NCBI RefSeq assembly: GCF_000166135.1
Contig: NC_014666.1
Span: 7,130,001-7,194,000 of the forward strand
Source of the DNA: Pseudofrankia inefficax
GTDB lineage: Bacteria > Actinomycetota > Actinomycetes > Frankiales > Frankiaceae
Direction: 5' to 3'
Length of the DNA stretch: 64,000 nucleotides
Shown: positions 27,671 through 60,445 of the stretch, one piece after another
How positions within the stretch are numbered: the stretch's first letter is position 1
Layout of the letters: each line of letters starts with the position of its first letter
Program-made: the position numbers and the translations under genes
The notes under the pieces: model-generated
What the model saw: only the letters and a program-made list of their open reading frames with translations
What the model was told of the DNA's origin: nothing
Database searches by the model: none

Positions 27671-27751
27671 GCGGGAGTGGCGGAATGGCAGACGCAGCAG
27701 ACTTAGGATCTGCCGCCCTAGGGCGTGGGGGTTCAAGTCCCCCCTCCCGCA
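27671..27751 (+). tRNA. tRNA-Leu (anticodon UAG)
   Basis: An 81-nt class II tRNA. The acceptor arm GCGGGAG pairs with CTCCCGC (27744–27750), with A as discriminator. The anticodon stem GCAGA/TCTGC encloses the loop CTTAGGA, giving anticodon UAG, which reads CUA and related Leu codons. A GGGGG/CCCCC T-arm encloses GTTCAAGTC. CCA is not encoded. The 3' part of the gene doubles as attL of the integrated element, which restores the tRNA sequence exactly. Confidence 0.95.
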
Positions 27752-27752
27752 C
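27702..27752 (+). repeat. attL (51-bp attachment repeat, 3' end of tRNA-Leu)
   Basis: From the C before TTAGGATC in the anticodon loop to the base after the discriminator, this segment is identical to 60395–60445. The crossover lies somewhere within it. The tRNA keeps its own 5' half here, so this is the functional gene copy. Confidence 0.93.
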
Positions 27753-27863: not shown

Positions 27864-29078
27864 ATGGTCAAGGAGCGTGCCGACGACGCTGCGTCGTCGA
27901 CCGAGGGGCACGTCGAGCGGCTGCCGAGCGGCTCGCTGCGGGTCGTCGTCTTCGCCGGCCGCGACGATGTGACCGGCAAGCCGATCTACCTCAAGGAGAC
28001 CGTCAAGCGCGCCGAGGACGTCGTCGCCGCGCGGGCCCGGCTGCTCGCCAAGGCCGGCGCCGGCCGGCGACCCGAGCGGAACGCCACCGTCGAGCGCCTG
28101 GTCGACGAATACCTCGCGACAGCCGACATCGAGCCGACGACAAGGCACATGTACGCCGGCTACGCCCGGCGCAACATCGTGCCGACGATCGGCAAGAAGA
28201 CGGTGCGCGAGATCCGGACGCGCACGCTCGAAACCCTCTACGCCCGCCTGCGGGTCTGCCGGAAGTTGTGCAACGGCAAGGGCCGGCCGGGGCACGTGTG
28301 TGAACCGTTGGCGGTCAGCACGATCCGCCAGATCCACGCCGTCGTGTCCGGCGCGTTCGCGGCCGCGGTCCGTTGGGAGTGGGTCGACGAAAGCCCGGCC
28401 GAGAACGCCAAGCTCCCCCGGGCGCACGCTGTCGAACCCGACCCGCCTTCGCCGACGGATGTCGCGGCGATCGTGACCAAGGCTTGGGAGCTGGACCCGC
28501 CGCTGGCGCTGTTCCTCTGGCTGGCGGTCACCGCCGGCGCGCGGCGCGGCGAGCTGTGCGAGCTCCGCTGGAACAACCTCGACCTCACCGCCGGAACCAT
28601 GCGGGTCGCACAGAACTACGCCGTCCGCGGCGGCAACAAGCTCCACAAGGCCACCAAGACCCATCAGAAACGAACCCTCGCGCTCGACGAGGTCACCTGC
28701 CAACTGCTCCAGGAGGAACACGACCGGATCGCGGGCGCGCTCGCCAAGGTCGACGTCACCCTGGCCGACGATGCCTTCGTCTTCTCCCATGACCCCGCCC
28801 ACAGCAAGCCCTGGAACCCGGATTCGGCCACCCACCGGGTCGCCGAGGTCGCGAAGGCTGCCGGAGTGAAGGCCACGATCAAGTCGCTGCGCCACTACAA
28901 CGCCACCCAGCTCCTGGCCGCCGGCGTCGACCTCCGCACCACCGCCGGTCGCCTCGGCCACGGCAGCGGCGGCGCCACCACCCTGCGCGTCTACGCCCAC
29001 CGCACCACCGAAGCCGACCGCCGCGCCGCTGCCATCCTGACGGCAGCCCTGCCCCCCAGGCCATCGGCTCCGGCCTGA
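27864..29078 (+). CDS. int: Tyrosine-type site-specific integrase
   Basis: A 404-aa tyrosine recombinase that integrates and excises the element at tRNA-Leu. An N-terminal arm-binding region (GSLRVVVFAGRDDVTGKPIYLKE) precedes a SAM-like core-binding domain (VERLVDEYLATADIEPTTRHMYAGY). In the catalytic domain, TAGARRGELCELRW holds the first Arg and KSLRHYNATQLL the second Arg with following His. RLGHGSGGATTLRVYAH holds the His/Tyr, with Tyr nucleophile in RVYAH. The usual His of HxxR is Lys (KSLR), a known variant. A CRKLCNGKGRPGHVC insertion resembles a zinc knuckle. It lies 112 bp from attL in the standard orientation. Confidence 0.93.
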   Translation: MVKERADDAASSTEGHVERLPSGSLRVVVFAGRDDVTGKPIYLKETVKRAEDVVAARARLLAKAGAGRRPERNATVERLVDEYLATADIEPTTRHMYAGYARRNIVPTIGKKTVREIRTRTLETLYARLRVCRKLCNGKGRPGHVCEPLAVSTIRQIHAVVSGAFAAAVRWEWVDESPAENAKLPRAHAVEPDPPSPTDVAAIVTKAWELDPPLALFLWLAVTAGARRGELCELRWNNLDLTAGTMRVAQNYAVRGGNKLHKATKTHQKRTLALDEVTCQLLQEEHDRIAGALAKVDVTLADDAFVFSHDPAHSKPWNPDSATHRVAEVAKAAGVKATIKSLRHYNATQLLAAGVDLRTTAGRLGHGSGGATTLRVYAHRTTEADRRAAAILTAALPPRPSAPA

Positions 29079-41071: not shown

Positions 41072-42528
41072 GCACCGAGGGTGACCGTCCGGTGGACCGT
41101 CCGGCGGACAGTCGAGGGCCGGCCGGCGGGCCCGCTGGAGGGGGTCACCACGCGTCCCCACGCGCACGCACGCGCATACGCGAGGCCCGGCGGACAGTCA
41201 AGCCGCCGGCCGCGTTGACGGCGCGTGAGCGGCTCGGCCGCTGGTTCACCGAGGCCTGCGCGGGCTGCGGGGTCGCCGTCGGGGGCGAGCACGAGGACCT
41301 GTGTGACTGGGCGACCTGCCTGACTACTGGCGACCAGCGATTGATGTGCGGCGACCGCTGCGGGGGTTGCGGCCAGGACGTGTGGACCGGCGCGGACCAC
41401 GGGACGGCCGAGGCCATCGAGTTCGGCTGGTACGGCCGGTTCACCGACCGCGACGCCGAGGGCCGGGAGAGCGGGTCGTGGGTGCGCTGCGGCCCGGACG
41501 ACCCGGACGCGAGCCCCGACACCGGCCGGGCGCTGCAGGAGGCCGACTGGGACCCCCAGGCCCTGCGCTGGCGGCTGATCCGGAAGAACTGCCCCCACTG
41601 CTCGGTACCGGTCGGCGCCGGCCATGACGCCCGCTGCTCGTGGGCGGTGTGCCTGGCGACGGGCGCCCGCCGCTGGCTGGCGTGCCGGGGCCGCTGCGGC
41701 ACTGGCTGCGGCCAGGACGCGTGGACCGGCGTCGACCCGACCGAGAGCGCCGCCGCCGACTTCGGCTGGTGGTGCGAGCCCGTGGACCCGTCGTCACGGG
41801 ACCACGGGCCTGCAAGCCCCCAGGGCGACGGACGGGCGGACCCGCAGGCCGAGGCCGGGCAGCCCCGCTGGGCGCCGTGCCTACCAGGCACCCCGGGTGC
41901 CCGCGCGGATGTGGCGCGGGTGGAAGCGCACGCGGTGTGGGACGCGGCGGCGCGCCGCTGGTGCCTGTCCGAGCCGCAGGACACCGCCTGGACGCCGCCC
42001 CTGCCACCCACGGCCGACCAGGAAGGAGACGACGACCAGGAAGAGGAGCCCGCGATGGACGCCGGGACAGACACCACGACCGAGACCCGGCCCCGGCCGC
42101 GCCGGCGCGGCCGCGCAACGGCCGGGGCCGGAGAGGAGATGGCGGGGCACGGCGAACTCGTCGAGGCGCCGCGGATCGCCGCCGCCGTCGACGACGACGG
42201 GGGCGAGCACGAGGTCGAGGCGGCCGGCTGGACGCACACGCTGGCCTGGCTGGCGGGGTTGGCGTTCGGGGACCTGGCGGTGCTGACGGTGCCGGCGCTG
42301 TGGAACGCGCCGCGCTCGTCGCTGGCGGATCTTCAGCGCTACGCCAAGGACGGGGACTGGTGTGAGCCGGACTCCCGCTGGCTGCGGCTGGCGGGGCTGG
42401 CCTACTTCTGGCTGTTCGCGGTCTGGGTCTGCGGCGCCCTGGACCTGGTGGACCGCCTCGTGCAGCGCCCCGGCCGCCTCGGCGTGGCCGGACTGCTCGG
42501 CCTGATCGTCTGGCTGGTGCTGCGGTGA
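41068..42528 (+). CDS. Cys-rich membrane protein with duplicated zinc-ribbon-like modules
   Basis: A 486-aa protein. Two related Cys modules lie at about 65–105 (CAGCGVAVGGEHEDLCDWATC … CGGCGQDVWTG, written in parts) and 175–220 (CPHCSVPVGAGHDARCSWAVC … CGTGCGQDAWTG). Each could bind zinc. A charged linker follows, then two hydrophobic helices near the C-terminus (FGDLAVLTVPALW and YFWLFAVWVCGALDLV). An in-frame ATG at 42055 with GAGGAG 9 nt upstream could make a shorter membrane form. Function unknown; the ATG overlaps the upstream stop. Confidence 0.65.
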   Translation: MSTEGDRPVDRPADSRGPAGGPAGGGHHASPRARTRIREARRTVKPPAALTARERLGRWFTEACAGCGVAVGGEHEDLCDWATCLTTGDQRLMCGDRCGGCGQDVWTGADHGTAEAIEFGWYGRFTDRDAEGRESGSWVRCGPDDPDASPDTGRALQEADWDPQALRWRLIRKNCPHCSVPVGAGHDARCSWAVCLATGARRWLACRGRCGTGCGQDAWTGVDPTESAAADFGWWCEPVDPSSRDHGPASPQGDGRADPQAEAGQPRWAPCLPGTPGARADVARVEAHAVWDAAARRWCLSEPQDTAWTPPLPPTADQEGDDDQEEEPAMDAGTDTTTETRPRPRRRGRATAGAGEEMAGHGELVEAPRIAAAVDDDGGEHEVEAAGWTHTLAWLAGLAFGDLAVLTVPALWNAPRSSLADLQRYAKDGDWCEPDSRWLRLAGLAYFWLFAVWVCGALDLVDRLVQRPGRLGVAGLLGLIVWLVLR

Positions 42529-43169
42529 ACGGCGTCGCCGCCGGCGGCGGCTGGACCGTGGGTCTGCTCGCCGGCGCCTACCTGGCCTGGCGGTGGCGCC
42601 ATCCGCTGGTCGCCATCGGGCTCGTCCTGGCCGCCGCCGTCTCCGGCGGGCTGATCCCCGTGCTGGCCGCCGGCGGCGGAGCCGCTGGCGGGCCGCTGGC
42701 GGCCGGGGCTCCGGTCCCGGCCGCCTACCGGCCGTGGGTCGAGCGGGCGGGCAGCTTCTGCCCGCAGATCAGCCCGGCGCTGATCGCCGCCCAGCTCTCC
42801 CAGGAGTCCGGCTTCAACCCGAACGCCCGCGGCAGCTCCGGTGAGCAGGGGATCGCCCAGTTCATGCCCCGCACCTGGCCGAGCTGGGCGACCGACGCGA
42901 ACCACAACGGCCCGCCGTCCCCGCTGGACCCGCCCGACGCCATCGAGGCCCAGGGCCACTTCATGTGCCACCTCGCCGGCGCCGCCAGCGCCGGTGTCTC
43001 CACCGGGCGGCTGCACGGCAACGTCACCGCGCTCGCGCTGGCCGGCTACAACGCCGGCTTCGGCGCGGTCCAGGCCGCCGGCGGCCTACCGGCCATCCCC
43101 TCGACCCGCGCCTACGTCACCCACATCACCAATTTGGCCGACCGCTACGCCGACCCGTCCCGCCTCTAA
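42525..43169 (+). CDS. Lytic transglycosylase of the transfer apparatus
   Basis: A 214-aa cell-wall hydrolase. One or two N-terminal hydrophobic segments anchor or export it. The SLT fold spans about 70–205. AAQLSQESGFNPNARG holds the catalytic Glu, GEQGIAQFMPRTW is the second motif, and ALAGYNAGFGAVQAAGG is the third. It likely opens peptidoglycan locally for DNA passage. The GTG overlaps the upstream stop, and TM/SLT genes follow the same order in many AICEs. Confidence 0.85.
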   Translation: MNGVAAGGGWTVGLLAGAYLAWRWRHPLVAIGLVLAAAVSGGLIPVLAAGGGAAGGPLAAGAPVPAAYRPWVERAGSFCPQISPALIAAQLSQESGFNPNARGSSGEQGIAQFMPRTWPSWATDANHNGPPSPLDPPDAIEAQGHFMCHLAGAASAGVSTGRLHGNVTALALAGYNAGFGAVQAAGGLPAIPSTRAYVTHITNLADRYADPSRL

Positions 43170-43827: not shown

Positions 43828-45657
43828 ATGGAAGCCTTGATCCTTCTGTGGGTTATCGGATACACGCTGTGGCGGACCAGCTCCGACACCGCGCGTAACA
43901 GCTGGTCGCTGCTACGCGGCCGCGAACCGCAGCCCCGCCAGCGCGGCGCGGCGCTGCCCGCGTCCCCGACCGCCCGCACCCTCGGTGCCCTGTTCGGCTG
44001 GTGGTGGGCGGCGTTCCTCGCGACCTGGCGGGGCAGCTGGCGCGACGGCCGGGCCCGCCGCGAGGCCGGCGGCCCCTGGCAGCCCTGGGCGCCGTTCGAC
44101 CGGCCCGGTGACCCGGCCGCCGGACCAGCGCCGACCGCGCCCCCCGGCCCGCGGCCAGCGGCGCCGACCGGCGGCGGCGAGGGACAGCCGGCCGCCGGCG
44201 AGCCCGGGCCCCGGTCCACGGGCCGACCCCACGTCGTGCCCCCACGCACCCCGCCAGCGGAACCGGCCGGCGCCGCGCCCGGACCGGCCCAACCCGGGCA
44301 GCCGCAGACCGAGGCGGCGCCGGTCATGGAGCCGGCCGGCGCCGGCGACGACGAGGTGATCGACGGCTGGCCGACGTGCTGGTCAGACCTGAGCCCCGGC
44401 GAGCAGGCCACGGTCCGGACCTACGACGTCGACGAGCACGCCGAGGCGTGGGAGGAGCTGACCGACGCCCAGCGGGCGGGCACCGTCGCCCGCTGGATCC
44501 GCGACCGCTTCGGCGTCGAGATCACCGACGTCGACGTGCTCGCCGCGCAGGCGGTCCGCCAGGACCCGACCTGGCGGACCGGGGTGCCCTGCGCGGAATG
44601 CGCCCTCTACGGTGGCCGGCCGATCAGCGCCAACCCCGCCGACCACGCGCCCGGCTGCCCGGTCGGGGAGTTCTTCCGCGCCGAGGGCGCCAGCGGGCAG
44701 GCCCCGCCGCCCGGGGCGCCGGTGGGCTGGGCGGACCTCGCCCCGGACGCGCAGCGCGCCATCGTCGCGGCGGCCGAGGCGACCTGGGCCAAGCCGTGGC
44801 GGCACCTGGCCGGCTACGCGCGCGCGAAGGCCGTCGCCCAGTGGCTCAACACGACCTACGGCGGCGCGGTGTCGGCCTACGACGTGCTCGACGCGGAGGT
44901 CAAGGGCGACTCGACCTGGCAAACCGGGGTGCCCTGCGCCGAGTGCGCCGCCGCCGGCCGCGAACGCCGTCTGACCAGCTCGACGTCGGGCGACCACGAC
45001 CCGGACTGCCCCTCGCGCCGCTTCCTCGCCAACCGGGAGGCCGGCTACACCGGCTGGCTCGACCAGGACGGCTACCGGACCGACGAGACCGGCACCCGGC
45101 TCGCCGACCAGGGCGACCTCGACACCGCCCCCCCGAACCCCGGTCCCGCGTCCGCGGGCCCGGTGCACGACCCGGCCGCGATCGCGGCCGGCCCCTCATC
45201 CCTTGGAGGAGCACCTGCCATGACCACCCTCAGTGGCGAGACGACCAGCCTCAGCAAGGCCCGGGCCTACTACGCCGATCTGGAGAGCCACGCCAGCGGC
45301 CACATCGCGGCGACCCACCTTGAGCCGGCCCAGGCCCGTTTCCGTGAGCTCCAGGCCCAGGCCGTCAGCGGGATCGCGGCCCAGATCGAGGTGTCGGAGA
45401 ACTACTTCCGAAACGCCGAACTGCCCGACGCGGCGGTCCTGGCCGGCGTCGCCGCGGCCAGGGAGACCGCGCTGCAGCTGGGCGCCGACCTCGACCGGAT
45501 CGGGACGGAACTGGCCGCCGCGTTCGAGACCGCGATGCGGCTCTCGACGGACGCGCGGGCCGTGCTGACCGCGCTCGACCAACACCGGCTCATGGAGGAC
45601 GCGGTCACCTCCACGTCGGGCGTCGCCGGGCGGACGGACTTCTACAAGCAGGACTGA
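43828..45657 (+). CDS. Large mobile-element protein with duplicated CxxC modules; possible two-gene fusion
   Basis: A 609-aa protein. A membrane-associated N-terminus (LILLWVIGYTLW, GALFGWWWAAFLATW) precedes a long Pro/Ala linker (80–175). Two repeats of about 100 aa follow, each a helical half plus TGVPCAEC…DH.P.CP (around 250 and 365), probably zinc-binding. The last 145 residues form a coiled-coil protein beginning MTTLSGETTSLSKARAYYAD. A strong ribosome site precedes that internal ATG at 45220, so this domain may also be made alone. No known family. Confidence 0.62.
   Translation: MEALILLWVIGYTLWRTSSDTARNSWSLLRGREPQPRQRGAALPASPTARTLGALFGWWWAAFLATWRGSWRDGRARREAGGPWQPWAPFDRPGDPAAGPAPTAPPGPRPAAPTGGGEGQPAAGEPGPRSTGRPHVVPPRTPPAEPAGAAPGPAQPGQPQTEAAPVMEPAGAGDDEVIDGWPTCWSDLSPGEQATVRTYDVDEHAEAWEELTDAQRAGTVARWIRDRFGVEITDVDVLAAQAVRQDPTWRTGVPCAECALYGGRPISANPADHAPGCPVGEFFRAEGASGQAPPPGAPVGWADLAPDAQRAIVAAAEATWAKPWRHLAGYARAKAVAQWLNTTYGGAVSAYDVLDAEVKGDSTWQTGVPCAECAAAGRERRLTSSTSGDHDPDCPSRRFLANREAGYTGWLDQDGYRTDETGTRLADQGDLDTAPPNPGPASAGPVHDPAAIAAGPSSLGGAPAMTTLSGETTSLSKARAYYADLESHASGHIAATHLEPAQARFRELQAQAVSGIAAQIEVSENYFRNAELPDAAVLAGVAAARETALQLGADLDRIGTELAAAFETAMRLSTDARAVLTALDQHRLMEDAVTSTSGVAGRTDFYKQD
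45205..45222 (+). promoter_or_regulatory. Internal ribosome site and start codon within the 43828–45657 gene
   Basis: GGAGGA (45205–45210) lies 9 nt before an in-frame ATG at 45220. It is stronger than most true sites in this operon. It would yield a separate 145-aa coiled-coil protein. Confidence 0.5.
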
Positions 45658-45754: not shown

Positions 45755-47914
45755 ATGCCGGCGACCAGAGACCAGTACCAGCAGATGCGCGCCGCGGCCG
45801 AGCAGGCCATCGGCCGCCGCTACGTCGCCCCCGACGCCCGGCTACGCCTGGTACGGATCGTCGTCGCGCGCCTCGGTGTGTGGCGGCTGCGCGCCCACGT
45901 CGCCCCGTTCGTGCTGATCGGCGGCCTGTGGGGCGTCGGGGCCGTCGTCGCGGCCGTCCCGCAGATCGCCGCGGTGGTCGTCCTCGGCTGGGCGCTGGCC
46001 GTGGGGATCACCTGGGGGGTGCGTCGCGGCCACTACGACGACGACACCACCGCCCGGCGCGCCGCGGCCCGCCGCGTCGGACGCACGACTGTCCTGGGCG
46101 CCGGCTGGCTGGGGCTGGCCGCGTGGCAGGGGGCGTGGGGCTGGCCGGCGGCGCTGCTGTGGGCCGGCGGGTACGCCTCATCCGCCGGCTGGTGGACCCG
46201 TCACCACATCCCCACCCCACCCGCCGTGGCGCCGATCGCCGAGCTGCCCGCCGCACCCGAGGTGCCCGTGCTGGAGCCGGCCGACCCCGCCCCGGTCGAG
46301 CCGGACGTCGCCACGCTGTGGGCGCAGCGCATCGGCGCGAAGGACCGCGTCCTCGCGGGCAGCATGCTCACCGGCTACCGCAAGATCGGCCCCGCTGACG
46401 CCTGGGACATCCACCTCAACCCGGGCGTGCACGCAACCGGCACCGCGATCGCCGCCGCACCGCTCATCGCGTCCGGGATCAGCCGTGGCATCGACCAGGT
46501 CACCGTCGATCGCCACCCGTCCGGCGTCGCCGACAAGGCGCTGCTGCTCGTCGTCGACCGGGCGAACAACCCGCTGCAACGCACCAACCCCCACCCCGGG
46601 CCAGAGAAGGTCTACAACGCGAAGACCGGCTACGGCGCCATCGGTATCCACCCCGACGAGGCGCACGCCGACTGGGCATTCGTCATCCCCGACTGGGGCC
46701 TGGCCGGCGGGGTCATCTTCGGCTCGACCGGCTCCGGCAAGTCCACCCTGATGACCAACCTCGCGGTCACCGCCGCCTACACCCGCTGCATCTCCGTCTG
46801 GGCCGGTGACCCCCAGGGCGGCCAGTCGATCCCCGCGATCATCCGGCGCGCGACCTGGCCCGCGACCGACAACGACGAGATCCTGCTGCAGCTACGCGCC
46901 GGCGTCGCCGCCATCAAGATCCGAGGCGTCCACAACAGCCTGCGCAACCGTGACCTGCACATCCCGACCCCCGCCGAGCCCGGCATCCTGCTGATCCTCG
47001 ACGAGATCCACAAGATCTTCATCCGGGGTTCCGAGCACGCCCACCTGGCCTCGCTGATCGCCCGCGAGGGCCGCAAGGCCGGCGTCGCGATGATCGGCGC
47101 CGACCAGTACGCCGGCCTGCCCACGTTCGGCGACGACTCGGCGCTGCGCGACAACATGATGGCCAAGAACCTCGCCGTGCTGCGCCTGACCTCGAAGTCG
47201 GCCAAGGGCATGATCCCCGGCCTGGACCTCGACCCCTCGGACCTGCCCGACGTGTTCCCCGACGGCAGCCCGACCTCCGGTCTGGGCTACCTGGTCGGCA
47301 GCCGGCGCACCGCCCCGTTCCGCGGCTGGCACACCCCGGCGGCCGACGCCTGGATGGCCGCCGCCCCCCAGGTCGAGCTGGACCGGGTCACCGCCGCGTT
47401 CATCGGCGACGACTACGTCCGCCGCGCCGAACGGGTCGCCGCGACCCGCGCCGAACAGGCCCGCATGATCGCCGACTTCGACCCCGACGCGCTCGCCGCG
47501 CTGCTCGCCGCCGACCCGACGCTGGCCACCGTCCTGCGCACCACCCCCCGCCGCCCCGCCCGGCCCACCCCCGCGGCCACGGCGGCGCCGGCGCGGACGA
47601 CCAGCGACGGGTCGCTGCTCACCCTCGCCCCCCTGGCCCCCGTCCAGGCCGCACCGACCCTCGCCCCGCTCGACGACACCCCCGCCACGCCCGCCGGCCC
47701 ACGCCCGGCGGTCCTCGACACCCCCGGCGGCGCCCGGATCTACGCGCTGCTGCAGGCCGGTGTGACCCGCGCCAAGGACCTCATCGAGCAATCCGGCGTC
47801 GGCAAGACCCGCGCCTACGAGGTCCTCACCGAACTCGTCGACGCCCACCTGGTCCTCGACGCCGGCCACGGCCAGTGGGCCCTGGCCCCCACCCCCACCC
47901 GAGCAGCCCGATAA
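45755..47914 (+). CDS. traB: FtsK/TraB-like DNA translocase
   Basis: A 719-aa conjugative DNA pump. N-terminal membrane helices (VAPFVLIGGLWGVGAVVAAV, IAAVVVLGWALAVGITWG) anchor it. The RecA-like motor has Walker A FGSTGSGKSTL (Lys329) and Walker B LLILDEIHKI (Asp416, Glu417). A C-terminal winged helix (IYALLQAGVTRAKDLIEQSGVGKTRAYEVLTEL) is where TraB/FtsK proteins read repeat sequences in the transferred DNA. AICEs need only this protein for double-stranded DNA transfer between mycelia. It is followed directly by a degenerate paralogue. Confidence 0.87.
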   Translation: MPATRDQYQQMRAAAEQAIGRRYVAPDARLRLVRIVVARLGVWRLRAHVAPFVLIGGLWGVGAVVAAVPQIAAVVVLGWALAVGITWGVRRGHYDDDTTARRAAARRVGRTTVLGAGWLGLAAWQGAWGWPAALLWAGGYASSAGWWTRHHIPTPPAVAPIAELPAAPEVPVLEPADPAPVEPDVATLWAQRIGAKDRVLAGSMLTGYRKIGPADAWDIHLNPGVHATGTAIAAAPLIASGISRGIDQVTVDRHPSGVADKALLLVVDRANNPLQRTNPHPGPEKVYNAKTGYGAIGIHPDEAHADWAFVIPDWGLAGGVIFGSTGSGKSTLMTNLAVTAAYTRCISVWAGDPQGGQSIPAIIRRATWPATDNDEILLQLRAGVAAIKIRGVHNSLRNRDLHIPTPAEPGILLILDEIHKIFIRGSEHAHLASLIAREGRKAGVAMIGADQYAGLPTFGDDSALRDNMMAKNLAVLRLTSKSAKGMIPGLDLDPSDLPDVFPDGSPTSGLGYLVGSRRTAPFRGWHTPAADAWMAAAPQVELDRVTAAFIGDDYVRRAERVAATRAEQARMIADFDPDALAALLAADPTLATVLRTTPRRPARPTPAATAAPARTTSDGSLLTLAPLAPVQAAPTLAPLDDTPATPAGPRPAVLDTPGGARIYALLQAGVTRAKDLIEQSGVGKTRAYEVLTELVDAHLVLDAGHGQWALAPTPTRAAR

Positions 47915-47945
47915 ACCGCCCAACCCGCACCCGAAAGGACATCCG

Positions 47946-49013
47946 ATGATCAACGCCAAGGCTGTGCCCCGCATGTGGGACATCGGGGTCGCCGCAGCAG
48001 CCGGCCCACTCGCCGGCAGCCGGCTCGGCCGCCCCCGCACCGTCGCCCCCGGCGCGACGACCTGGCCGCTACAGGTCCGCCGCGGCGGCGCCCTGGACCC
48101 CGCCGCCCTGGACGCCGAGCTGCCCAGGATCGCCTCCGCGCTCGACGTCGGCCTCTACGAGGTCGCCCTCAATTGCGCGCCCGGCTCACGTGCCGAGCTC
48201 CAGCTCGTCGTCAGCGGCCTGCTGAGCACGGTTCAGCCCTACCCCGGACCCGGCGTCTACGACCCGGCCGCGATCCCGGTCGGCCGCCACCTCGACGGCA
48301 CCGCCGCCCCCTGGCAGCTCTACCACCAGGCCGTCGGCCTGACCGGCGGTGTGATCATCGGCGCCACCGGCGCGGGCACCTCCACCATGCTCACCTCGAT
48401 CGCCGTCAGCGCCGCCCACACCGGCTGGCTCGCCGTCTGGGCCGGCGACCTCACCGGCGGCGGGGAGATCCCCGCCGTCAGCCGCCACGCCGCCCGGTTC
48501 GCGCACACCCTTCCGCAGATCGACGCCCTGCTGGGCGAGGCGAACAGGCGTATCGACCAGCGCCAGGCCGCCTGCGCCGCCACACGGCAGGCGATGCACC
48601 ACCCGTCGCCGGACGAGCCCGCGCTGCTCCTCGTGCTGCCCCGCATCGACCAGATCGCCAGTCGCGACCGCAGCCTGGCCCTACGGGCCGGGCGGATCGC
48701 CTACGAGGGCCGCAAGGCCGGGGTCGCCCTGCTCGCGACAGCCCCCGACAGCTCGCCGCTCAGCTTCGGCGGCGACGTCCGGCTCCGTGACGCGCTGTGC
48801 GCGGTCAACGTCGCGCTCCTGCGCACCACTTCACGCAGCGAGACCCCCGGCCTCGCGCCTGGCCTGCACCCTGAGCGGCTTCCGCAGGACCTGCCCGGCA
48901 CCGGCTACCTGCCCGGCGCGGGATCCGCGGCGCCGTTCCGCGGCTGGCACCTCACCGACCACACCGCCGACCGCCACCTCGCCGCCGCCCCCACCCTGCC
49001 CACCGCCGCCTAA
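47946..49013 (+). CDS. Degenerate FtsK/TraB paralogue (Walker motifs lost)
   Basis: A 355-aa protein aligning with the motor domain of the preceding TraB: AVWAGD, YEGRKAGVALLATA, VRLRDALCAVNVALLRTTS and PGTGYL…APFRGWH have clear counterparts. Walker A reads GATGAGTST, so Thr145 replaces the catalytic Lys. Walker B reads LLLVLPRID, with Pro232-Arg233 where TraB has Asp-Glu. The rest is well conserved and frame is intact, so this is a maintained pseudo-ATPase, not a decaying gene. It lacks the N-terminal membrane part and the winged helix. It could cap or regulate the TraB hexamer. Confidence 0.75.
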   Translation: MINAKAVPRMWDIGVAAAAGPLAGSRLGRPRTVAPGATTWPLQVRRGGALDPAALDAELPRIASALDVGLYEVALNCAPGSRAELQLVVSGLLSTVQPYPGPGVYDPAAIPVGRHLDGTAAPWQLYHQAVGLTGGVIIGATGAGTSTMLTSIAVSAAHTGWLAVWAGDLTGGGEIPAVSRHAARFAHTLPQIDALLGEANRRIDQRQAACAATRQAMHHPSPDEPALLLVLPRIDQIASRDRSLALRAGRIAYEGRKAGVALLATAPDSSPLSFGGDVRLRDALCAVNVALLRTTSRSETPGLAPGLHPERLPQDLPGTGYLPGAGSAAPFRGWHLTDHTADRHLAAAPTLPTAA

Positions 49014-49298: not shown

Positions 49299-49320
49299 CG
49301 TGACGGCTACCGCCGTCACG
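49299..49320 (+). terminator. Short hairpin between small genes
   Basis: CGTGACGG…CCGTCACG, 8-bp stem with a 6-nt loop, 14 bp after the stop at 49284. Confidence 0.5.
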
Positions 49321-49344
49321 GGACCGGAAACGGAGCCCCGTCCG

Positions 49345-49767
49345 ATGATCGCCACCACGTTCGCCGCCCTCGCGGCGAGCGCCTACGCCGCCCACCAGAT
49401 CGCCGACCACCTCGCCCAGACCGACGCGATGGCCGCCACCAAGGCCGGCCCCGGCCGGGCTAGCTGGGCCGCGCTCGCCCGCCACGTCGGCGTCTACCAC
49501 CTGATCGTCGCCGCGATGTGCGGCATCGCGATCGCCGTCCTCGGACTGTCGGTCAGCCCGGCCGGCGCCGCCGTGGGCCTGACGGTCTCGGCCGCGACCC
49601 ACGCCCTGTGGGACCGGCGGACCCCGGTCCGCTGGCTGCTGGAGCACACCGGCTCCCGGCAGTGGGCCGCCACCGCCGACCGGGGCATCCACGGCCTCTA
49701 CCTGAGTGACCAAGCCCTGCATGTCGGGTGTCTCTGGCTCGCCGTCCTACTCGCCACCGTCCTGTAA
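49345..49767 (+). CDS. Hypothetical membrane protein (DUF3307-like)
   Basis: A 140-aa protein. AAHQIADHLAQTDAMAATKAG followed by HVGVYHLIVAAMCGIAIAV resembles the His/Asp-bearing helices of DUF3307-type membrane proteins. A second hydrophobic segment ends the protein (HVGCLWLAVLLATVL). Start ATG 49345 with GGAG at 9 nt. Role unknown. Confidence 0.55.
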   Translation: MIATTFAALAASAYAAHQIADHLAQTDAMAATKAGPGRASWAALARHVGVYHLIVAAMCGIAIAVLGLSVSPAGAAVGLTVSAATHALWDRRTPVRWLLEHTGSRQWAATADRGIHGLYLSDQALHVGCLWLAVLLATVL

Positions 49768-50903: not shown

Positions 50904-51556
50904 CCACCACTCCAGCCGTCGCGCCGGTGTCGATCGAGATGGGCCAGCTAGCGGCCCTGGCCGCGCTCGCCCGCGAGGGCACCGAGGCGCTGATCGCTCA
51001 CAGCGGCGGTGAGACCGACCACCGCAGCCTGGCTGGCCGGCTCCGGACGATCCTCGCCGCCGTCGAAGTCACCGCGCGGACAGCCGGGATCGACCTGGTC
51101 GATGCCATCCCTACGCCCGTCACAACCGTTAGGAACGCGGCGGAAGTCAGCGAGGACTGGCCCGCCGTCGTCCCGTCCGAGGACCGTGCGACCCGGCAGG
51201 CGCAGATGTTGCGCGCTGGCGCCGCGCTCGTCGAGCAGATGCCGGACGCCGGGCTCATGGTCGAGGTGCGAGATAGCGCGCACCGCCTCGAGATCGTGCC
51301 CCAGACCTTCCGCCACGGCGTGGACGACGCGGCCAACGACCGCGCGAACCTGGACGTGCTCGCCGAGCTGCGCGGCAGGCTCGACGGCGAGGCCCGAACG
51401 ACCGCACACGTGTCCGCAGTGGGCGCCCTCCACATCACGGTCACCGGCGGCACCTGGCTCGGCCTTCCCGCCCGCGCCTACACGATCATTGATCCAGGGG
51501 CCGTCCAGGACGCCGCCCGCGCTTGGCTTGCGCAGATCGGGGTCGAGGTCCGATGA
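50900..51556 (+). CDS. Hypothetical protein
   Basis: A 218-aa soluble protein with a helical N-half (GQLAALAALAREGTEALIAH, LAGRLRTILAAVEV) and a beta-rich C-half (VGALHITVTGGTWLGLPARAYTII). No domain recognised. Overlaps both neighbours by ATGA, placing it in the same operon as whiB and the methyltransferase. Confidence 0.6.
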   Translation: MTTTPAVAPVSIEMGQLAALAALAREGTEALIAHSGGETDHRSLAGRLRTILAAVEVTARTAGIDLVDAIPTPVTTVRNAAEVSEDWPAVVPSEDRATRQAQMLRAGAALVEQMPDAGLMVEVRDSAHRLEIVPQTFRHGVDDAANDRANLDVLAELRGRLDGEARTTAHVSAVGALHITVTGGTWLGLPARAYTIIDPGAVQDAARAWLAQIGVEVR

Positions 51557-51978
51557 CCACGATCACCGCGGTCGTCCCATGCGAGGCCGCCAGCCGGACG
51601 CTGGGCGGAAATTCCCCGGAGGAGATGCCGGTCCCGCCGGCAATTGAGCCGAGCGTCGCCGCGCTCTTGATCCATCTCATGGCCGAGGCCGAGGACTGGC
51701 GCGAGCGGGCGGTGTGCGCGCAGACCGATCCGGAGGCCTTTTTCCCGGAGAAGGGCCAGTCGGCCCGCGAGGCCAAGCGTGTCTGTGCTGGCTGCGAGGT
51801 CCGCTCGGAATGCCTGCAGTACGCGCTCGACAACGACGAGCGGTTCGGCGTCTGGGGCGGCCTGTCTGAACGTGAACGCCGCGCACGGCGCCGGGCCCCT
51901 CGATCCGGGACTCCATCGGACGCCCACCGCTCCGTCCCGCCGGCCGCCGGCATCGACCTCGCTGGGGAGGACAAATGA
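51553..51978 (+). CDS. WhiB family transcriptional regulator
   Basis: A 141-aa canonical WhiB. AVCAQTDPEAFFPEKGQ gives the first Cys, VCAGCEVRSECLQYAL the Cys-x2-Cys-x5-Cys set, and FGVWGGLSERERRARRR the GVWGG turn and basic DNA-contact tail. It should hold a [4Fe-4S] cluster and bind the primary sigma factor. It immediately precedes the DNA methyltransferase gene with ATGA overlap. Confidence 0.88.
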   Translation: MTTITAVVPCEAASRTLGGNSPEEMPVPPAIEPSVAALLIHLMAEAEDWRERAVCAQTDPEAFFPEKGQSAREAKRVCAGCEVRSECLQYALDNDERFGVWGGLSERERRARRRAPRSGTPSDAHRSVPPAAGIDLAGEDK

Positions 51979-53612
51979 GCGGCCGCGACGTGACGGCGCT
52001 AGACCTGTTCTGCGGTGCGGGTGGGTCGTCCACCGGCCTGGTCGGCGCGGGGGTGCGGGTCACGCATGCCGCGAATCACTGGCCGCTGGCCGTCGAGGTG
52101 CACGGTCTGAACCATCCGGAGACCGAGCACGACTGCGCCGACATTTCAGGGACCGACCCGCGTCGCTACCCGTCTACGGACATTCTCTGGGCGTCGCCTG
52201 AATGCACGAACCAGTCGGTGGCGAAGGGCCGGCGGCGCCCGACGGGTCAGATCGCGCTGTTCGGGGACAAGCCGGACCCGGCGGCGGAGCGGTCGAGGGC
52301 GACGATGTGGGATGTCCCCCGGTTCGCCGAGACGGCGGTCCACCGGGGCCGTCCCTACGCGGCGATCATCACCGAGAACGTCGTCGACGTGCGGTGGTGG
52401 CTCGGCTGGAACGGCTGGATCCTCGCGATGACGGATCTCGGCTACGACCACGCGGTCGTCTATCTGAACTCGGCGTTCGCGCACGGGAAGGACTACGCCG
52501 GCGCCCCGCAGTACCGCGACCGGCTGTACATCGTGTTCTGGCGCCGCGGGCTGCCCGCCCCGGACCTCGATATCCGGCCGCCGGCCTGGTGCCCGTCCTG
52601 CGCGACCGCTGTGGACGCGGTCCAAGCATGGAAGAACCCGGCCACCAGATGGGGCCGGTGGCGGGCGCAGTATGTCTACCAGTGCCCGACCTGCCGGACG
52701 GTCGCCGAGCCGCTGGCGATCCCGGCGGCGGCGGTCATCGACTGGGCCAACCTCGGCCCGGCGATCGGCGACCGGGCCCGCCCGCTCGCCGCGGCCACGA
52801 GGGAGCGGATCCGCGCGGGGCTGGCCCGCTACGGCCGGCCGATCGGCCTGCCGACCGGCGGGAACACCTTCGAGCGCCAGCCCGGTACCCGGGTGTGGCC
52901 GCTCGACGTGCCCCGACCGGTCGTGACCGCGACCGGCGAAGCCCACGCCCTGACCGTCCCGCCGCTGCTCGTGCCCGCCGGCGGGACGTGGAACGACGAC
53001 GCGACGCCAGCGACCCTGCCGATACGGGTCCGGACCACCCGGGAGACCGAGGCGCTCGCCTCCCCGGCCGGCGCCGCGCCGTTCATCGCGACGCTGCGCC
53101 GCCACGTCCAGCCCACCGGCGTCGCAGGCCCGCTCGCGACCGTCACCGCGGCCGGCACCCACCACGGCCTCACGACCCCCGCCGGCCTGGCCGTCCCCGT
53201 CGAAGCCCGATCCGGTCTACGAGCTCGGCTGACCGGCGGGCCGCTGCGGACCCAGACGACCCGCCGCGAGACCGCGCTCGCGACACCGGCCGACGGGGCC
53301 TTGCTGCTGCCCTACTACGGCACCGGCGTCGCCCGCCCCGCCAGCTGGCCCGCCGGCACGCTCACTACCCGCGACCGCTACGCCCTGACCACCCGCACCC
53401 CCGCCGACGTCCCTGACCACGAGATCGACGGCTGCCGGTTCCGGATGCTCACCGTCGGCGAGATCGGCGCCGCGATGGCGTTCCCCACCGACTACCTGAT
53501 GGCCGGCGCGACCCGTCGCGACCAGGTCCGGATGTACGGCAACGCCGTCACCCCACCCGCCGCCCGCCTTCTCGCCGAGCGGGTCGTCGCCATCCTGGAG
53601 GTGGCGGCGTGA
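51975..53612 (+). CDS. DNA (cytosine-5) methyltransferase, orphan
   Basis: A 545-aa C5 methyltransferase. Motif I LDLFCGAGGSS binds AdoMet; motif IV reads ASPECTNQS with Cys77 as nucleophile (PEC where PPC is common). Motif VI ENV, motif VIII QYRDRLY and motif X YGNAVTPPAA are present. A four-Cys insertion (CPSC…CPTC, around 215–245) looks like a zinc ribbon. No restriction endonuclease is adjacent, so it is probably a protective or regulatory methylase of the element. Target site unknown. Confidence 0.87.
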   Translation: MSGRDVTALDLFCGAGGSSTGLVGAGVRVTHAANHWPLAVEVHGLNHPETEHDCADISGTDPRRYPSTDILWASPECTNQSVAKGRRRPTGQIALFGDKPDPAAERSRATMWDVPRFAETAVHRGRPYAAIITENVVDVRWWLGWNGWILAMTDLGYDHAVVYLNSAFAHGKDYAGAPQYRDRLYIVFWRRGLPAPDLDIRPPAWCPSCATAVDAVQAWKNPATRWGRWRAQYVYQCPTCRTVAEPLAIPAAAVIDWANLGPAIGDRARPLAAATRERIRAGLARYGRPIGLPTGGNTFERQPGTRVWPLDVPRPVVTATGEAHALTVPPLLVPAGGTWNDDATPATLPIRVRTTRETEALASPAGAAPFIATLRRHVQPTGVAGPLATVTAAGTHHGLTTPAGLAVPVEARSGLRARLTGGPLRTQTTRRETALATPADGALLLPYYGTGVARPASWPAGTLTTRDRYALTTRTPADVPDHEIDGCRFRMLTVGEIGAAMAFPTDYLMAGATRRDQVRMYGNAVTPPAARLLAERVVAILEVAA

Positions 53613-53737
53613 TCGACTCCCAGGTCGACCGAGACCTTCTCGCGGCCGAACTGGCCCGCGCCGAGGCGGCGCTGCGGGAGGAGCTCGACCGGGCGGGCGC
53701 AACAGCGTTGAGCGTTGCGGGCGTGGTGGGCCGATGA
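53609..53737 (+). CDS. 42-aa helical protein
   Basis: GTG overlaps the methyltransferase stop, and its TGA overlaps the Prim-Pol ATG. The peptide is a single amphipathic helix (DLLAAELARAEAALREELDRA). It may only couple translation. Confidence 0.5.
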   Translation: MIDSQVDRDLLAAELARAEAALREELDRAGATALSVAGVVGR

Positions 53738-54669
53738 GCAACGACCGCACCTCCCATGTGGGACCGGCGCTCGCGCTTGCGCGTCGCGGGATGCATGTCT
53801 TCCCCGTACGGCCAGGGAGCAAGGCGCCGATGGTCAAGTGGGGTACCGAGGCCACCGTCGATCCGGAGGTGATCGCCGGCTGGTGGGAACGGTGGCCGGC
53901 CGCATCCATCGCGGTGGCGTGCAAGCCCAGTGGACTGACCGTCGTCGACGTCGACGGGCCCGCCGGCCGGGCCTCCTGGCAGGCTCTGACCGCTCGACAT
54001 GGGCAGGCCCCGACGACGTCGGTGACCACCGGCCGGGACGACGGCGGAATCCACTACTGGTACCGCGCCCCGCACGTCGACCCGCCGGGCAACAGCAAAG
54101 GGCTGGTAGGCGCGGGAATCGATGTACGGGGCGCCGGCGAGGGCGCGGGCGGGATGGTGCTGGCCCCGCCGTCGCGGCACCCGTCCGGGCGCCGCTACCA
54201 GTGGTGCGACCGGCTATCGCTGGCCGAGTTGCCCGCCTGGCTCCGCAGGCTGGCCCAGCCGCAGCCAACCAGCCAGGGCGGCGAAGCCCGCGACGTCGAC
54301 CGTCGCCGCCTGCGGGTGGCGACGGACTGGACGGGGCGCGGCGAGCCAGGGGCCGTACGTCGTGCCAGGGCATGGGCCGTCGCTGCTCTCGCCGGCGAGG
54401 CAGCCGACATCGCCGGCATGGCCGCGGACTCGGGCCGCAACGACGCCCTCAACGGAGCCGCCTACAAGCTGGGCCGGCTGGTCGGCGGCGCGCTTCTCGC
54501 AGACGGCGACGTCCGCCAGGTCCTCGCCGACGCGGCGGCCGCCTGCGGGCTGCCCACGGCCGAGGCCGCCCGCACGATCGCGTCCGGGCTCGCGGCCGGC
54601 GTCGGCGACCCGCGGACCGCCGAGGACGTCTGCGTGGGCCTCCGGCGGCGCGGCATGGGCGCCGCGTGA
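53734..54669 (+). CDS. Bifunctional DNA primase/polymerase (Prim-Pol)
   Basis: A 311-aa replication initiator. The Prim-Pol domain covers about 8–190: ALALARRGMHVFPVRPGSKAP, then LTVVDVDGPAG with the metal-binding Asp pair, and GIHYWYRAP…GIDVRGAG. The C-terminal helical part may bind the helicase. Prim-Pol proteins replace RepSA in one AICE class. It is coupled by GTGA to the ATPase gene that follows. Confidence 0.87.
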   Translation: MSNDRTSHVGPALALARRGMHVFPVRPGSKAPMVKWGTEATVDPEVIAGWWERWPAASIAVACKPSGLTVVDVDGPAGRASWQALTARHGQAPTTSVTTGRDDGGIHYWYRAPHVDPPGNSKGLVGAGIDVRGAGEGAGGMVLAPPSRHPSGRRYQWCDRLSLAELPAWLRRLAQPQPTSQGGEARDVDRRRLRVATDWTGRGEPGAVRRARAWAVAALAGEAADIAGMAADSGRNDALNGAAYKLGRLVGGALLADGDVRQVLADAAAACGLPTAEAARTIASGLAAGVGDPRTAEDVCVGLRRRGMGAA

Positions 54670-57042: not shown

Positions 57043-60000
57043 GTGGCAGGGTTCGCTCGTGAGCGCGTCGTCGAGATCAAGGCGGGTGACGCTCCCACCA
57101 AGCGGGGGTCCGGCAATCTGGTCGGCCCCGACCTTGTGTTGACGGCCGCGCACACGGTCTTCGGTGCTGATGGCCAGCCGCGCTTACCGGTGCGGGTGCG
57201 GCGCCTTGACGACGTCGCCGAAGGGGACGACATGGAGGCCGACGGCTGGTCCCCGCCAGGGACGGTCGCCTGGCCCGCATCGTGGTCCTCCGACAGTGCG
57301 GAGCCGGATATCGCACTCGTTCGCCTCGCCGCTCCACTGTCCTCGGGCTCGCTTCCAGATGTCCGGTGGGGGCGTTTCACCGGGTCGGCTGGTCGCCAGC
57401 CATGCGAGCTCGTCGGCTTTCCACGAGTGCTCCGTGACGACCAGAAGGTGCGTCTGCCCGACCATCTGACCGGCCACATCAACCCGATGGCCAGCGGCCG
57501 GACCGGCGACCGCCTGTACCTGCACGTCGACGACGCTAGGCCGGACGGATGGGAGAGATACGCACCATCCGACGGGCATCCCAGCGCGGATAGGAAGGAG
57601 ACCCGCTCCTCGGCCTGGGCGGGTTTGTCGGGAGCTGCCGTCTTCTCCAATGATCTTCTGATCGGGGTGGTGAAGGACGACGATCTTGCCTTCACGGGCG
57701 GTCGTCTGACCGTGACGCCGATCAGGACTGTCGCCGCCGACCCGGACTTCGCGCGGCTGGTTGGCGTCGAACGGATCGACCCGGAGTCGGTCGAACTGTG
57801 GCGCCTTTTCGAGCCCACCAGGAGCGTCCGCGGCCGGCAGTCACCAGCGTCATTGCTGCGTCCCGAACGGGAGGTCGTCAGCTTCTACGGGCGGCAGACA
57901 GAACGCGCGTCCTTGAACGCCTGGTGTGAGGATGACGACGCCGACCCGGTGCGGTTGCTCGTCGGCCCGGGAGGACAAGGCAAGACCCGCCTCGCCATGC
58001 AGGTCTGCTCCGATCGGCGGGCCGCCGGCTGGGTCGCCGGCCCGCTCGCGGGCCATGCCCCATCCGCAGTCCTGAACCGACTCGGTGGCACACAGGCGCC
58101 GGTGCTGCTGGTCGTCGACTACGCCGAGACCCGGCAAGGCCAACTCACGCTGCTACTCGACACGCTGCGCCGGACCGGCACGAGCTGGGTCCGGCTGCTA
58201 CTGCTGGCCCGCTCGGCGTCCGAGGACGCCACCTGGTGGGCCAACCTTCGTGGCAGCTACCCAGACCTTTGCGGCACCGTCATCCCCGAGCCCCTCGCCC
58301 CGCTGGAACCCGACCCGCTCGGCCGCGCGGGCCAGTATGTCCAGGCACTCGCGGATCTGGCCAAAGCCTGGTCGAGCTACAGCCCCAGCACCGACTGGGC
58401 CGGCCTGGCCGCACGGATGCACGCACCCGGCGATCTAACCGACGACAGGTACGGCCTTGCCCTGACCCTCCACACCCAGGCGCTCACGCAGCTCCTGCAG
58501 GCCGGCCCCAGCCCTGTCGCCGACATCGATGCCAGGACCGGCCGCACCATGTACGACGTGCTGCTCGACCACGAACAGCACTACTGGACTGACACGGCCA
58601 GCTCTCGACAGCTGCATCCGCGATACGTCGGCTCGTTGCTCCGTCAGGCGGTCGCCGCAGCCGCGCTGTGCGGAGCCGCTGACAGGCGACAGGCAATGGC
58701 CACCGTCGGCCGAATCCCCGAATTCGCTGCCGAATCCGGGCCGGACCGGCGCGCGCTCGCCGAATGGCTCAGGGACCTCTACCCGTCGTCAATCGGCTAC
58801 TGGGGATCGCTCGCCCCCGACCGCATCGCCGAACATCTCATCGGCCAGACGCTGCGCCCCAGCCCAGACGGCGATCCTGACCTCGCCGCCGCCCTCCTCA
58901 CGGACGGCAAGTCTGCCCAGCTTTGTCAGGGACTGATCGTCCTCGCCCGCGCTGCCTACCACCAGCAGCACATCCCGGCAGCCTTGGGCAAGCTCCTCGC
59001 CAAGCAGCCAAAGATTGTGTCCGCCGTCCACAATCTCACCGTCGCTGAAGTCACCGCCATCGTCGATACCTTCCCCAATACGTCCGTCGATCTCGCTGTC
59101 GCCGCCGCGAGCCTCACCGAACAGGCGGTGATGCGCCTTCGGCCGGACCCAGACATCGACACCGGTCTCTCCTCCGAGTACCTCCGATTGTTGAACAACC
59201 TGTCGGTCCGGCTGGCGGCGCTCGGCCGCCGCGAGGACGCCCTCAGCGCCATCAACGAAGCCGTCGACCTCTACCGAGACCTGGCCGCAGCCCGACCCGA
59301 CGCCTTCGGCCCCGACCTCGCGATGTCGCTGAACAACCAGTCGGTCCGGCTGGCGGCGCTCGGCCGCCGCGAGGACGCCCTCAGCGCCATCAACGAAGCC
59401 GTCGACCTCTACCGAGACCTGGCCGCAGCCCGACCCGACGCCTTCCGCCCCGACCTCGCGATGTCGCTGAACAACCAGTCGGTCCGGCTGGCGGCGCTCG
59501 GCCGCCACGAGGACGCCCTCAGCGCCATCAACGAAGCCGTCGACCTCTACCGAGACCTGGCCGCAGCCCGACCCGACGCCTTCGGCCCCGACCTCGCGTC
59601 ATCGCTGAACAACCAGTCGAACCGGCTGGCGGCGCTCGGCCGCCGCGAGGACGCCCTCAGCGCCATCAACGAAGCCGTCGACCTCGGCCGAGACCTGGCC
59701 GCAGCCCGACCCGACGCCTTCCGCCCCGACCTCGCGTCATCGCTGAACAACCAGTCGAACCGGCTGGCGGCGCTCGGCCGCCGCGAGGACGCCCTCAGCG
59801 CCATCAACGAAGCCGTCCAGATCCGCCGGGACCTGGCCGCAGCCCGACCCGACGCCTTCCGCCCCGACCTCGCGTCATCGCTGAACAACCAGTCGGTCCA
59901 GCTGGCGGCGCTCGGCCGCCACGAGGACGCCCTCACCGCCATCAACGAAGCCGTCCAGATCCGCCGGGAACTGCAGCAGCGGTACCCGGCGGTCTATGCG

Positions 60001-60252
60001 CAGCCGCTGGCACAGTCGCTGACGCTGACCGGCCTTGTGCTCTGCGGCTCTCGGACGACGCGGCCGATGGCACGTGCTCTGCTCGAAGCCCTGACGCTGG
60101 CGATCGAGCACCAGCTGAACGATCTGCTGCGCCTCGCCGTGTCGCTGCTGCGGGACGAACGTCAAGGCGATCAGCCGGCGTTCGACGCGGTGTGGCGGGA
60201 ACTCACAGGAGCAGAACTGCCCGACTGGCTCGGCCCGGATGATGCCTCCTGA
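57043..60252 (+). CDS. Trypsin-like protease / STAND NTPase / TPR fusion
   Basis: A 1,069-aa protein. Residues 1–225 are an S1-type protease with the triad His37 (TAAHTVF), Asp89 (EPDIALVRL) and Ser196 (AGLSGAAVF). Next is a P-loop NTPase: Walker A GPGGQGKT (Lys314) and Walker B LLVVDYAE (Asp359). A long helical region follows. Six 46-residue TPR-like repeats (RLAALGRREDALSAINEAVDLYRDLAAARPDAF type, in parts) span about 721–995. Such fusions are predicted immune or cell-death effectors that cleave a target when the repeats sense infection. GTG start with GGGGG upstream. Last gene before attR. Confidence 0.87.
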   Translation: MAGFARERVVEIKAGDAPTKRGSGNLVGPDLVLTAAHTVFGADGQPRLPVRVRRLDDVAEGDDMEADGWSPPGTVAWPASWSSDSAEPDIALVRLAAPLSSGSLPDVRWGRFTGSAGRQPCELVGFPRVLRDDQKVRLPDHLTGHINPMASGRTGDRLYLHVDDARPDGWERYAPSDGHPSADRKETRSSAWAGLSGAAVFSNDLLIGVVKDDDLAFTGGRLTVTPIRTVAADPDFARLVGVERIDPESVELWRLFEPTRSVRGRQSPASLLRPEREVVSFYGRQTERASLNAWCEDDDADPVRLLVGPGGQGKTRLAMQVCSDRRAAGWVAGPLAGHAPSAVLNRLGGTQAPVLLVVDYAETRQGQLTLLLDTLRRTGTSWVRLLLLARSASEDATWWANLRGSYPDLCGTVIPEPLAPLEPDPLGRAGQYVQALADLAKAWSSYSPSTDWAGLAARMHAPGDLTDDRYGLALTLHTQALTQLLQAGPSPVADIDARTGRTMYDVLLDHEQHYWTDTASSRQLHPRYVGSLLRQAVAAAALCGAADRRQAMATVGRIPEFAAESGPDRRALAEWLRDLYPSSIGYWGSLAPDRIAEHLIGQTLRPSPDGDPDLAAALLTDGKSAQLCQGLIVLARAAYHQQHIPAALGKLLAKQPKIVSAVHNLTVAEVTAIVDTFPNTSVDLAVAAASLTEQAVMRLRPDPDIDTGLSSEYLRLLNNLSVRLAALGRREDALSAINEAVDLYRDLAAARPDAFGPDLAMSLNNQSVRLAALGRREDALSAINEAVDLYRDLAAARPDAFRPDLAMSLNNQSVRLAALGRHEDALSAINEAVDLYRDLAAARPDAFGPDLASSLNNQSNRLAALGRREDALSAINEAVDLGRDLAAARPDAFRPDLASSLNNQSNRLAALGRREDALSAINEAVQIRRDLAAARPDAFRPDLASSLNNQSVQLAALGRHEDALTAINEAVQIRRELQQRYPAVYAQPLAQSLTLTGLVLCGSRTTRPMARALLEALTLAIEHQLNDLLRLAVSLLRDERQGDQPAFDAVWRELTGAELPDWLGPDDAS
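59203..60030. repeat. 138-bp near-identical TPR-coding repeats
   Basis: Six in-frame units start at 59203, 59341, 59479, 59617, 59755 and 59893. The first five differ at few bases; the last is diverged. The low divergence at silent sites implies recent duplication or conversion. Confidence 0.85.
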
Positions 60253-60394: not shown

Positions 60395-60445
60395 CTTAGG
60401 ATCTGCCGCCCTAGGGCGTGGGGGTTCAAGTCCCCCCTCCCGCAC
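60395..60445 (+). repeat. attR (51-bp attachment repeat, truncated tRNA-Leu copy)
   Basis: Identical over 51 bp to 27702–27752. The sequence before CTTAGG diverges from the tRNA, so this copy lacks the 5' half and is not a functional tRNA. The core is intact despite an insertion sequence starting 3 bp after its end. Confidence 0.93.

Follow-up and report, generated by a model that had tools for sequence, protein, structure and literature searches.

How is a TraB-type DNA pump switched on, kept selective or blocked? The question is raised by a short gene, here P0001 (47946-49013, + strand), which stands directly behind an intact traB gene and encodes a motor domain of the same type whose ATP site seems to have been dismantled. 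The gene lies in a stretch of 64,000 nucleotides, bases 7130001-7194000 of its contig, which we call the window; the strain is one that we take to be Frankia (Pseudofrankia) inefficax EuI1c. By analogy with EccC, whose degenerate D2 and D3 domains it would resemble in trans, we suggest that P0001 may partner or regulate the TraB ring as an accessory protein that does not hydrolyse ATP; we give this reading a probability of about 0.43.

Both genes belong to a mobile element. Two identical 51-bp att repeats, one being the 3′ end of a tRNA-Leu gene which is the integration target (tRNA at 27671-27752, first att copy at 27702-27752, second att copy at 60395-60445, all + strand), delimit an element of 32.7 kb. 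Domain matches identify a tyrosine integrase beside the tRNA (27864-29078, +), a transglycosylase-domain protein (42525-43169), a DUF3307 protein (49300-49767, +), a WhiB-type regulator (51523-51978, +; the element encodes more than one WhiB regulator), a C-5 cytosine methylase (51975-53612, +) and a Prim-Pol protein (53734-54669, +), probably the replication module. A 609-aa protein is encoded ahead of traB (43828-45657, +). Beside the second att copy lies the gene of a large trypsin/STAND/TPR-type protein of 1069 aa with an ANAPC5 match (57043-60252), which looks like a protein of the conflict or defence type and whose gene contains 138-bp repeats up to 96% alike. Another repeat array within the element, at 31729-33809, consists of eleven overlapping copies of a 236-nt repeat at spacings of 96-312 bp.

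Strain EuI1c was studied by Ghinet et al. 2011 (PMC3218068), and in the accessible part of that paper an element Feul5809 is placed among remnants in which tra or rep is missing. In the figure on these remnants, a lytic transglycosylase and apc5 appear in the legend; the 57043-60252 protein has an ANAPC5 match. The 32.7-kb element may be Feul5809. What may speak against this identity is that the same part of the paper assigns a WhiB protein to FeuI6863, a different element of EuI1c, and gives Feul5809 a GntR regulator. If the two are nevertheless identical, the traB gene was overlooked in print, its product scoring 14.7 bits for Pfam FtsK_SpoIIIE against a cut-off of 24. The element at 27702-60445 has an integrase, TraB, Prim-Pol and identical att repeats, whereas the printed remnant with which it is possibly identical lacks tra or rep.

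The traB gene (45755-47914, +) encodes 719 aa and, judged by its frame and by alignment, has intact Walker A and B motifs as well as the Arg and the Gln discussed below. The protein contains a hydrophobic stretch within residues 47-90 and a TrmB-like winged-helix match at 664-700 (23.5 bits, slightly below the Pfam cut-off of 25.6). Its predicted model has a mean pLDDT of 67.4, with ten-residue means of 65-92 over residues 181-480, and the motor region of this model finds FtsK as best structural match, followed by TcpA and EccC. P0001 starts 31 bp after the traB stop codon and runs as an open frame of 355 aa from ATG to TAA; a ribosome-binding-like stretch, GAAAGGA, can be read at 47933-47939 (+), 6 bases before the ATG. 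By BLASTP, residues 7-335 of P0001 align with TraB 185-526 at 131 of 345 identical positions (38%, E 1e-48). Thus, the tandem of traB with a paralogue of its motor, which the initial annotation had proposed, is confirmed. P0001 has no hydrophobic stretch in a Kyte-Doolittle scan and no C-terminal winged helix, the local alignment ending at TraB 526, ahead of the TrmB-like part. No Pfam family scores above its cut-off, and in NCBIfam there is a weak, partial plasmid_TraB match (E 2.9e-5; 22.7 bits, cut-off 800). A predicted model of P0001, built from six sequences, reaches a mean pLDDT of 44.5, too poor for a fold search, and P0001 as a single sequence retrieved no FtsK or EccC chain from the PDB. 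The frame and the codon bias had been called intact, with good reason: GC at the three codon positions is 0.76/0.59/0.93 in P0001 and alike in TraB (0.74/0.56/0.95).

The substitutions in the ATP site can be read directly by alignment with TraB, and both replacements claimed beforehand are present, that of the Walker A Lys by Thr and that of the Walker B Asp-Glu by Pro-Arg. Walker A is GATGAGTST (48360-48386, +), with Thr145 in place of Lys, where TraB has GSTGSGKST; Walker B is LLLVLPRID (48624-48650, +), with Pro232-Arg233 in place of Asp-Glu, where TraB has LLILDEIHK. Furthermore, TAP (48738-48746, +) is found where A-x-Q is conserved, a position that is sensor-1-like in our reading. Arg256 (48711-48713, +) is retained and corresponds, in the alignment, to the Arg within KARAAGIH of E. 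coli FtsK. We presume that it is the Arg finger, i.e. the counterpart of R620 in P. aeruginosa FtsK. That R620 is the Arg finger of the latter protein is described in the available part of PMC7321959. A reading error or frame slip as the cause of the lost residues was considered and ruled out: the frame is open, the altered motifs lie within conserved motor sequence and comparable losses recur in other copies.

How selective these losses are was assessed in an alignment of 33 proteins (A5), in which positions were taken as conserved when shared by at least 80% of 25 longer TraB/FtsK-like relatives. P0001 keeps 26 of 31 such positions, one of which, Met1, is a start-codon artefact. The five that are lost comprise the Lys of Walker A (K145T), the acidic pair of Walker B (D232P and E233R) and, past the following strand, the Ala and Gln of A-x-Q (A265T and Q267P), while the P-loop glycines, Ser146, Arg256, Arg281, Arg293 and Arg332 are kept. 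Nine positions, picked after the alignment was seen, were assigned to the ATP site, and they include all five losses (hypergeometric p 7e-4). As a control, each longer relative was compared with the other 24 at a cut of 88%: 23 of the 25 keep at least 19 of 20 or 21 positions, and two keep just 16/20 and 14/21, P0001 keeping 17/22. The loss of conserved positions is therefore not rare in itself. P0001 thus has a degenerate ATP site within an otherwise conserved motor domain, and we infer that it lacks ATPase activity.

Every one of 38 longer proteins has the Walker A Lys (39 rows minus one copy described below, from bin25; rows L091 and L092 both represent one Nocardiopsis TraB). Their Walker B pair is DE in 34, EE in three and DD in one, and the Arg is found in 36. 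In an 834-aa TraB-like protein (L044 12493-14997, genome G029), DE is replaced by DD and the Arg-finger-like residue is Gly; the Lys is kept. Five FtsK-like proteins of ~540-600 aa (L010, L013, L028, L029 and L030, from the same search as G000:C1:26205-26888) show GKG against the usual GK[ST]; here the Lys is present, Gly replaces Ser/Thr, and DE is kept.

Among 35 genomes of the window's family, the window's own counted, the tandem occurs in two others, Frankia sp. AgB32 and the Frankia MAG NGEE_A_bin25, and in both a homologue of the 609-aa protein stands ahead of traB. The AgB32 copy (NZ_JALKFX010000029.1, 280 aa) has GATSSGTT for Walker A and ED for Walker B and keeps the Arg. The bin25 copy (JAMFSN010000171.1) has an intact Walker A (GYAGAGKT), again ED, and Pro for the Arg; its longest frame of 492 aa overlaps its own traB, with in-frame candidate starts shortly past the traB stop. 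With Lys and two acids present, the bin25 copy is possibly not dead and may still bind or cleave ATP. All three Frankia copies are open frames with mutual identities of 36-38% in the motor core. P0001 has no match in plasmids or phages at E 1e-5, alignments A1, A2 and A3 found no further relatives in viral contigs, and in the genome contigs P0001 found none and alignment A2 returned just the two known Frankia loci.

A second group of short copies was found by inspecting the DNA behind other TraB genes and then 341 genomes of one other family, with matches in five. It comprises at least five distinct proteins of ~220 aa encoded behind traB, in G216, G293, G492 and G468 and on a Nocardiopsis plasmid. 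The plasmid protein (WP_220566105.1, annotated as hypothetical) is encoded 160 bp behind a gene annotated as conjugative DNA transfer protein and adjoined by NUDIX and DUF3307 genes; the copies of MT53, changdeensis and G474, all Nocardiopsis, are one protein and are counted once. The DUF3307 protein of the window is likewise homologous to proteins near traB in second-group elements (G293 and G390). When used as queries, the G293 and the G492 copy each found the same two Nocardiopsis plasmids; the G293 copy had no phage match, and the G468 copy had no match in plasmids or phages. The second group is only remotely related to P0001: when a profile of two of its copies was compared with those of the Frankia copies and of TraB, the match spanned 47 columns for the former (E 1.8e-7) and 176 columns for the latter (E 4.6e-7). 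With a profile of all eight short copies, EccC comes first among solved structures and FtsK is also found. The two Frankia sister copies and the five second-group copies each lie within about 0.8 kb behind traB.

In the second group Lys is replaced by Gly in all five copies, DE is DG in four and retained in that of G468, and the Arg is lost in four. Taking both groups together, Lys is missing in seven of the eight short copies, DE is missing in seven, and none has both; for the loss of Lys in 7/8 short against 0/38 longer proteins, Fisher's test gives p 1.5e-7 (kinship ignored). A survey for the same tandem and the same lost residues had been proposed as a check. Short motor-like genes do occur behind traB elsewhere, but the residues lost vary, as the Lys of bin25 and the DE of G468 illustrate. 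Sister elements with intact Walker motifs had been named as evidence against a dead subunit, and bin25 is in part such a case, with an intact Walker A and a Walker B that is ED and still acidic. Frameshifted copies, likewise named, were not seen: all eight have open frames without internal stops and gene-like codon-position GC, although a badly decayed copy could escape the search. A 217-aa P-loop protein of G355 (L079 18163-18816, -) was rejected as a further copy; it is encoded ~7 kb upstream of traB and keeps the Lys and the acidic pair. Its kinship to the paralogues is weak and its Walker A is intact; if it were counted, Lys would be lost in 7/9 short proteins.

The short copy is not a constant companion of traB. 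It was found behind traB in eight of 27 TraB loci examined and is not detectable in the other 19. For the second family, at least 20 places with TraB (E <= 1e-40) divide into five with a short copy and 15 without a detectable one, in one of which (G481) the contig extends just 1.2 kb behind traB. Among the seven loci of the window's family whose TraB groups with that of the window in the tree, three have the copy and four have none. These prevalences are lower bounds, the large runs having scored 3 to 8 candidates per genome. TraB itself has matches in 38 plasmid records. An empty site can be recognised between two second-group elements which are 80% and 78% identical in DNA on either side of the copy: G390 has 129 bp (L082 8513-8641) and no copy at the place where G293 has 898 bp (L080 7309-8206), which take in the copy together with the variable end of the DUF3307 gene. 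Since the copy is present in 8/27 loci and one second-group site is empty, it looks like an accessory gene. The earlier proposal of a non-catalytic subunit is supported in part, the ATP site being dismantled, but with 19 of 27 loci lacking a detectable copy P0001 does not represent a general obligate subunit of TraB.

Other relatives of traB also turn up at this place. In G348 a 205-aa protein (L081 5640-6257, -) with two winged-helix stretches is encoded behind traB. The stretches are 47% and 58% identical to the C-termini of the TraB proteins of G348 and G481, the first resembling its own TraB and the second other TraBs; the TraBs of G348 and G216 are 83% identical. Different partial relatives of traB thus occur behind traB.

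Trees of the motor region were calculated with 33 rows and with 31 rows (two long rows removed, Walker columns retained), and topologies were tested on the 31-row tree alone. The copies of the window and AgB32 group together with support of 87/78 (33 rows) and 88/61 (31 rows). Support is high (99/97 and 99/96) for a clade that unites the five second-group copies and lies next to ungrouped FtsK-like rows rather than TraB. Monophyly is not rejected for the three Frankia copies (AU p 0.515) and is weakly rejected for all eight copies (p 0.017); pairing each Frankia copy with its own TraB is not rejected (p 0.068, 0.107 and 0.113). When the ungrouped FtsK-like rows are set aside, the copies and TraB need one label change on either tree, which argues against two origins. 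In our view, two separate origins, one for the Frankia copies and one for the second group, are the better reading of these trees, though not a proven one. Motor-core identity of P0001 is 43% with its own TraB and 38% with either sister copy. Pairwise, the Frankia copies are 38, 38 and 36% identical, against 67, 45 and 41% for the corresponding TraBs, so that a faster divergence of the copies is marked in one pair only. The suggestion that P0001 looks selected has the open frame and the TraB-like codon GC in its favour; dN/dS lends it no support, because synonymous sites are saturated for the copies, as they are for the TraB pairs.

We propose the following scheme. P0001 would be a stand-alone motor domain of the TraB/FtsK type that keeps the fold but probably no longer hydrolyses ATP and perhaps does not bind it normally. 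It would be made from the same transcript as TraB and could dock onto the TraB motor domains, where it might tune the assembly, the start-up or the load of the double-stranded DNA pump, in whichever direction. Through the Arg-finger-like Arg that it retains, P0001 could still act on the site of an adjacent TraB. This partner model is supported by the position behind traB, by the confinement of the losses to the ATP site, by the recurrence of short copies behind traB and by the EccC precedent. Against it speak the differing losses among the copies (bin25 keeps Walker A and two acids and is without the Arg, which four of the five second-group copies lack as well), the remoteness of the second group and the 19 loci without a detectable copy. 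The faster divergence of the copies compared with TraB would also fit weak constraint.

That constraint might be lacking altogether: part of traB would have been duplicated in a region prone to such events, and P0001 would be what is left of it, a passive remnant that drifts and has no function. The partial traB relatives at this place, e.g. the 205-aa protein of G348, agree with this, as do the fast divergence with uninformative dN/dS and a motor core in P0001 that is as close or closer to TraB than to the sister copies. We consider a remnant doubtful all the same in the light of the eight intact frames, with the reservation made above for decayed copies, and of the gene-like codon-position GC of P0001 and its losses at the ATP site only. 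A simulation of neutral drift, run without indels, leaves a chance of 2-8% for the absence of any stop at nucleotide identities of 0.70 to 0.48; this is a modest argument. The same pattern of losses, with the other conserved residues kept, is what a dominant-negative subunit requires, and P0001 could be an exclusion or competition factor: a dead motor that co-assembles with or caps the TraB of incoming or competing elements, poisons it and so shields the resident element. The patchy distribution, the empty site in one second-group element and a divergence ahead of that of TraB (strongly so in one of three pairs) would suit this role. A gene directly behind its own traB would, however, be expected to poison that TraB as well unless it were specific, and among the open-access papers matched for TraB, entry exclusion and Streptomyces none seems on point from its title and the beginning of its abstract; exclusion is in our opinion unlikely. 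Finally, P0001 might act apart from the TraB ring as an adaptor, for instance by binding DNA or a peptide signal. It has neither a hydrophobic stretch nor a winged helix, and ATPases 2 and 3 of EccC were solved with a signal-sequence peptide according to the entry title of 4n1a; but position and ancestry both point to TraB, and an adaptor of this kind seems improbable. We keep to an accessory partner of the TraB ring as the preferred reading.

In conjugative elements of at least two actinobacterial families, duplication of an FtsK/TraB-type motor might separately have given rise to a partner gene of its own whose dead product controls the TraB ring in trans or blocks the ring of a rival. We put this forward tentatively, as a possibility rather than an expectation. 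If true, the pairing of a live with a dead ATPase that EccC has in one chain would here be split over two genes, and a control layer would be added to a pump described as needing one protein. Elements with a dead motor copy and close relatives without it offer a natural plus/minus test of regulation or exclusion.

Several known systems invite comparison. TraB of actinobacterial conjugative plasmids and AICEs is an FtsK/SpoIIIE-type double-stranded DNA pump whose motor region is homologous to P0001 (the neighbouring TraB at 38% identity); P0001 differs by the absence of the hydrophobic N-terminus, the winged helix, the Walker A Lys, the Walker B DE and the Gln of A-x-Q. Short proteins named TraB (139 aa), which occur together with an ATP/GTP-binding protein and ParM in Streptomyces according to the accessible part of PMC9513070, are likewise short, TraB-related and actinobacterial, but differ from P0001 in neighbourhood and size. 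It had been supposed that a dead partner of such a pump is not described. A dead TraB paralogue was indeed not seen among the matches of searches in the open-access PMC literature, a scope outside which most subscription papers fall; degenerate FtsK-type domains beside a live one are known in cis, in the D2, D3 and DUF domains of EccC/EssC from type VII secretion (consulted portion of PMC11154593). In EccC the first motor is active, D2, D3 and DUF are degenerate, and D2 and D3 are proposed to be regulatory, as stated in the same portion of that paper; for ATPase3 of EccC, ATP binding is reported in the available text of PMC6954902 to be essential and its activity to be little. EccC and P0001 share degenerate Walker motifs beside an active motor and probably the FtsK-type fold. 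The EccC domains, however, are fused in one chain and serve protein secretion, whereas P0001 is a separate gene in a DNA-transfer element, and as a partner of TraB it would carry over to DNA transfer the combination of live and dead FtsK-type motors known from EccC.
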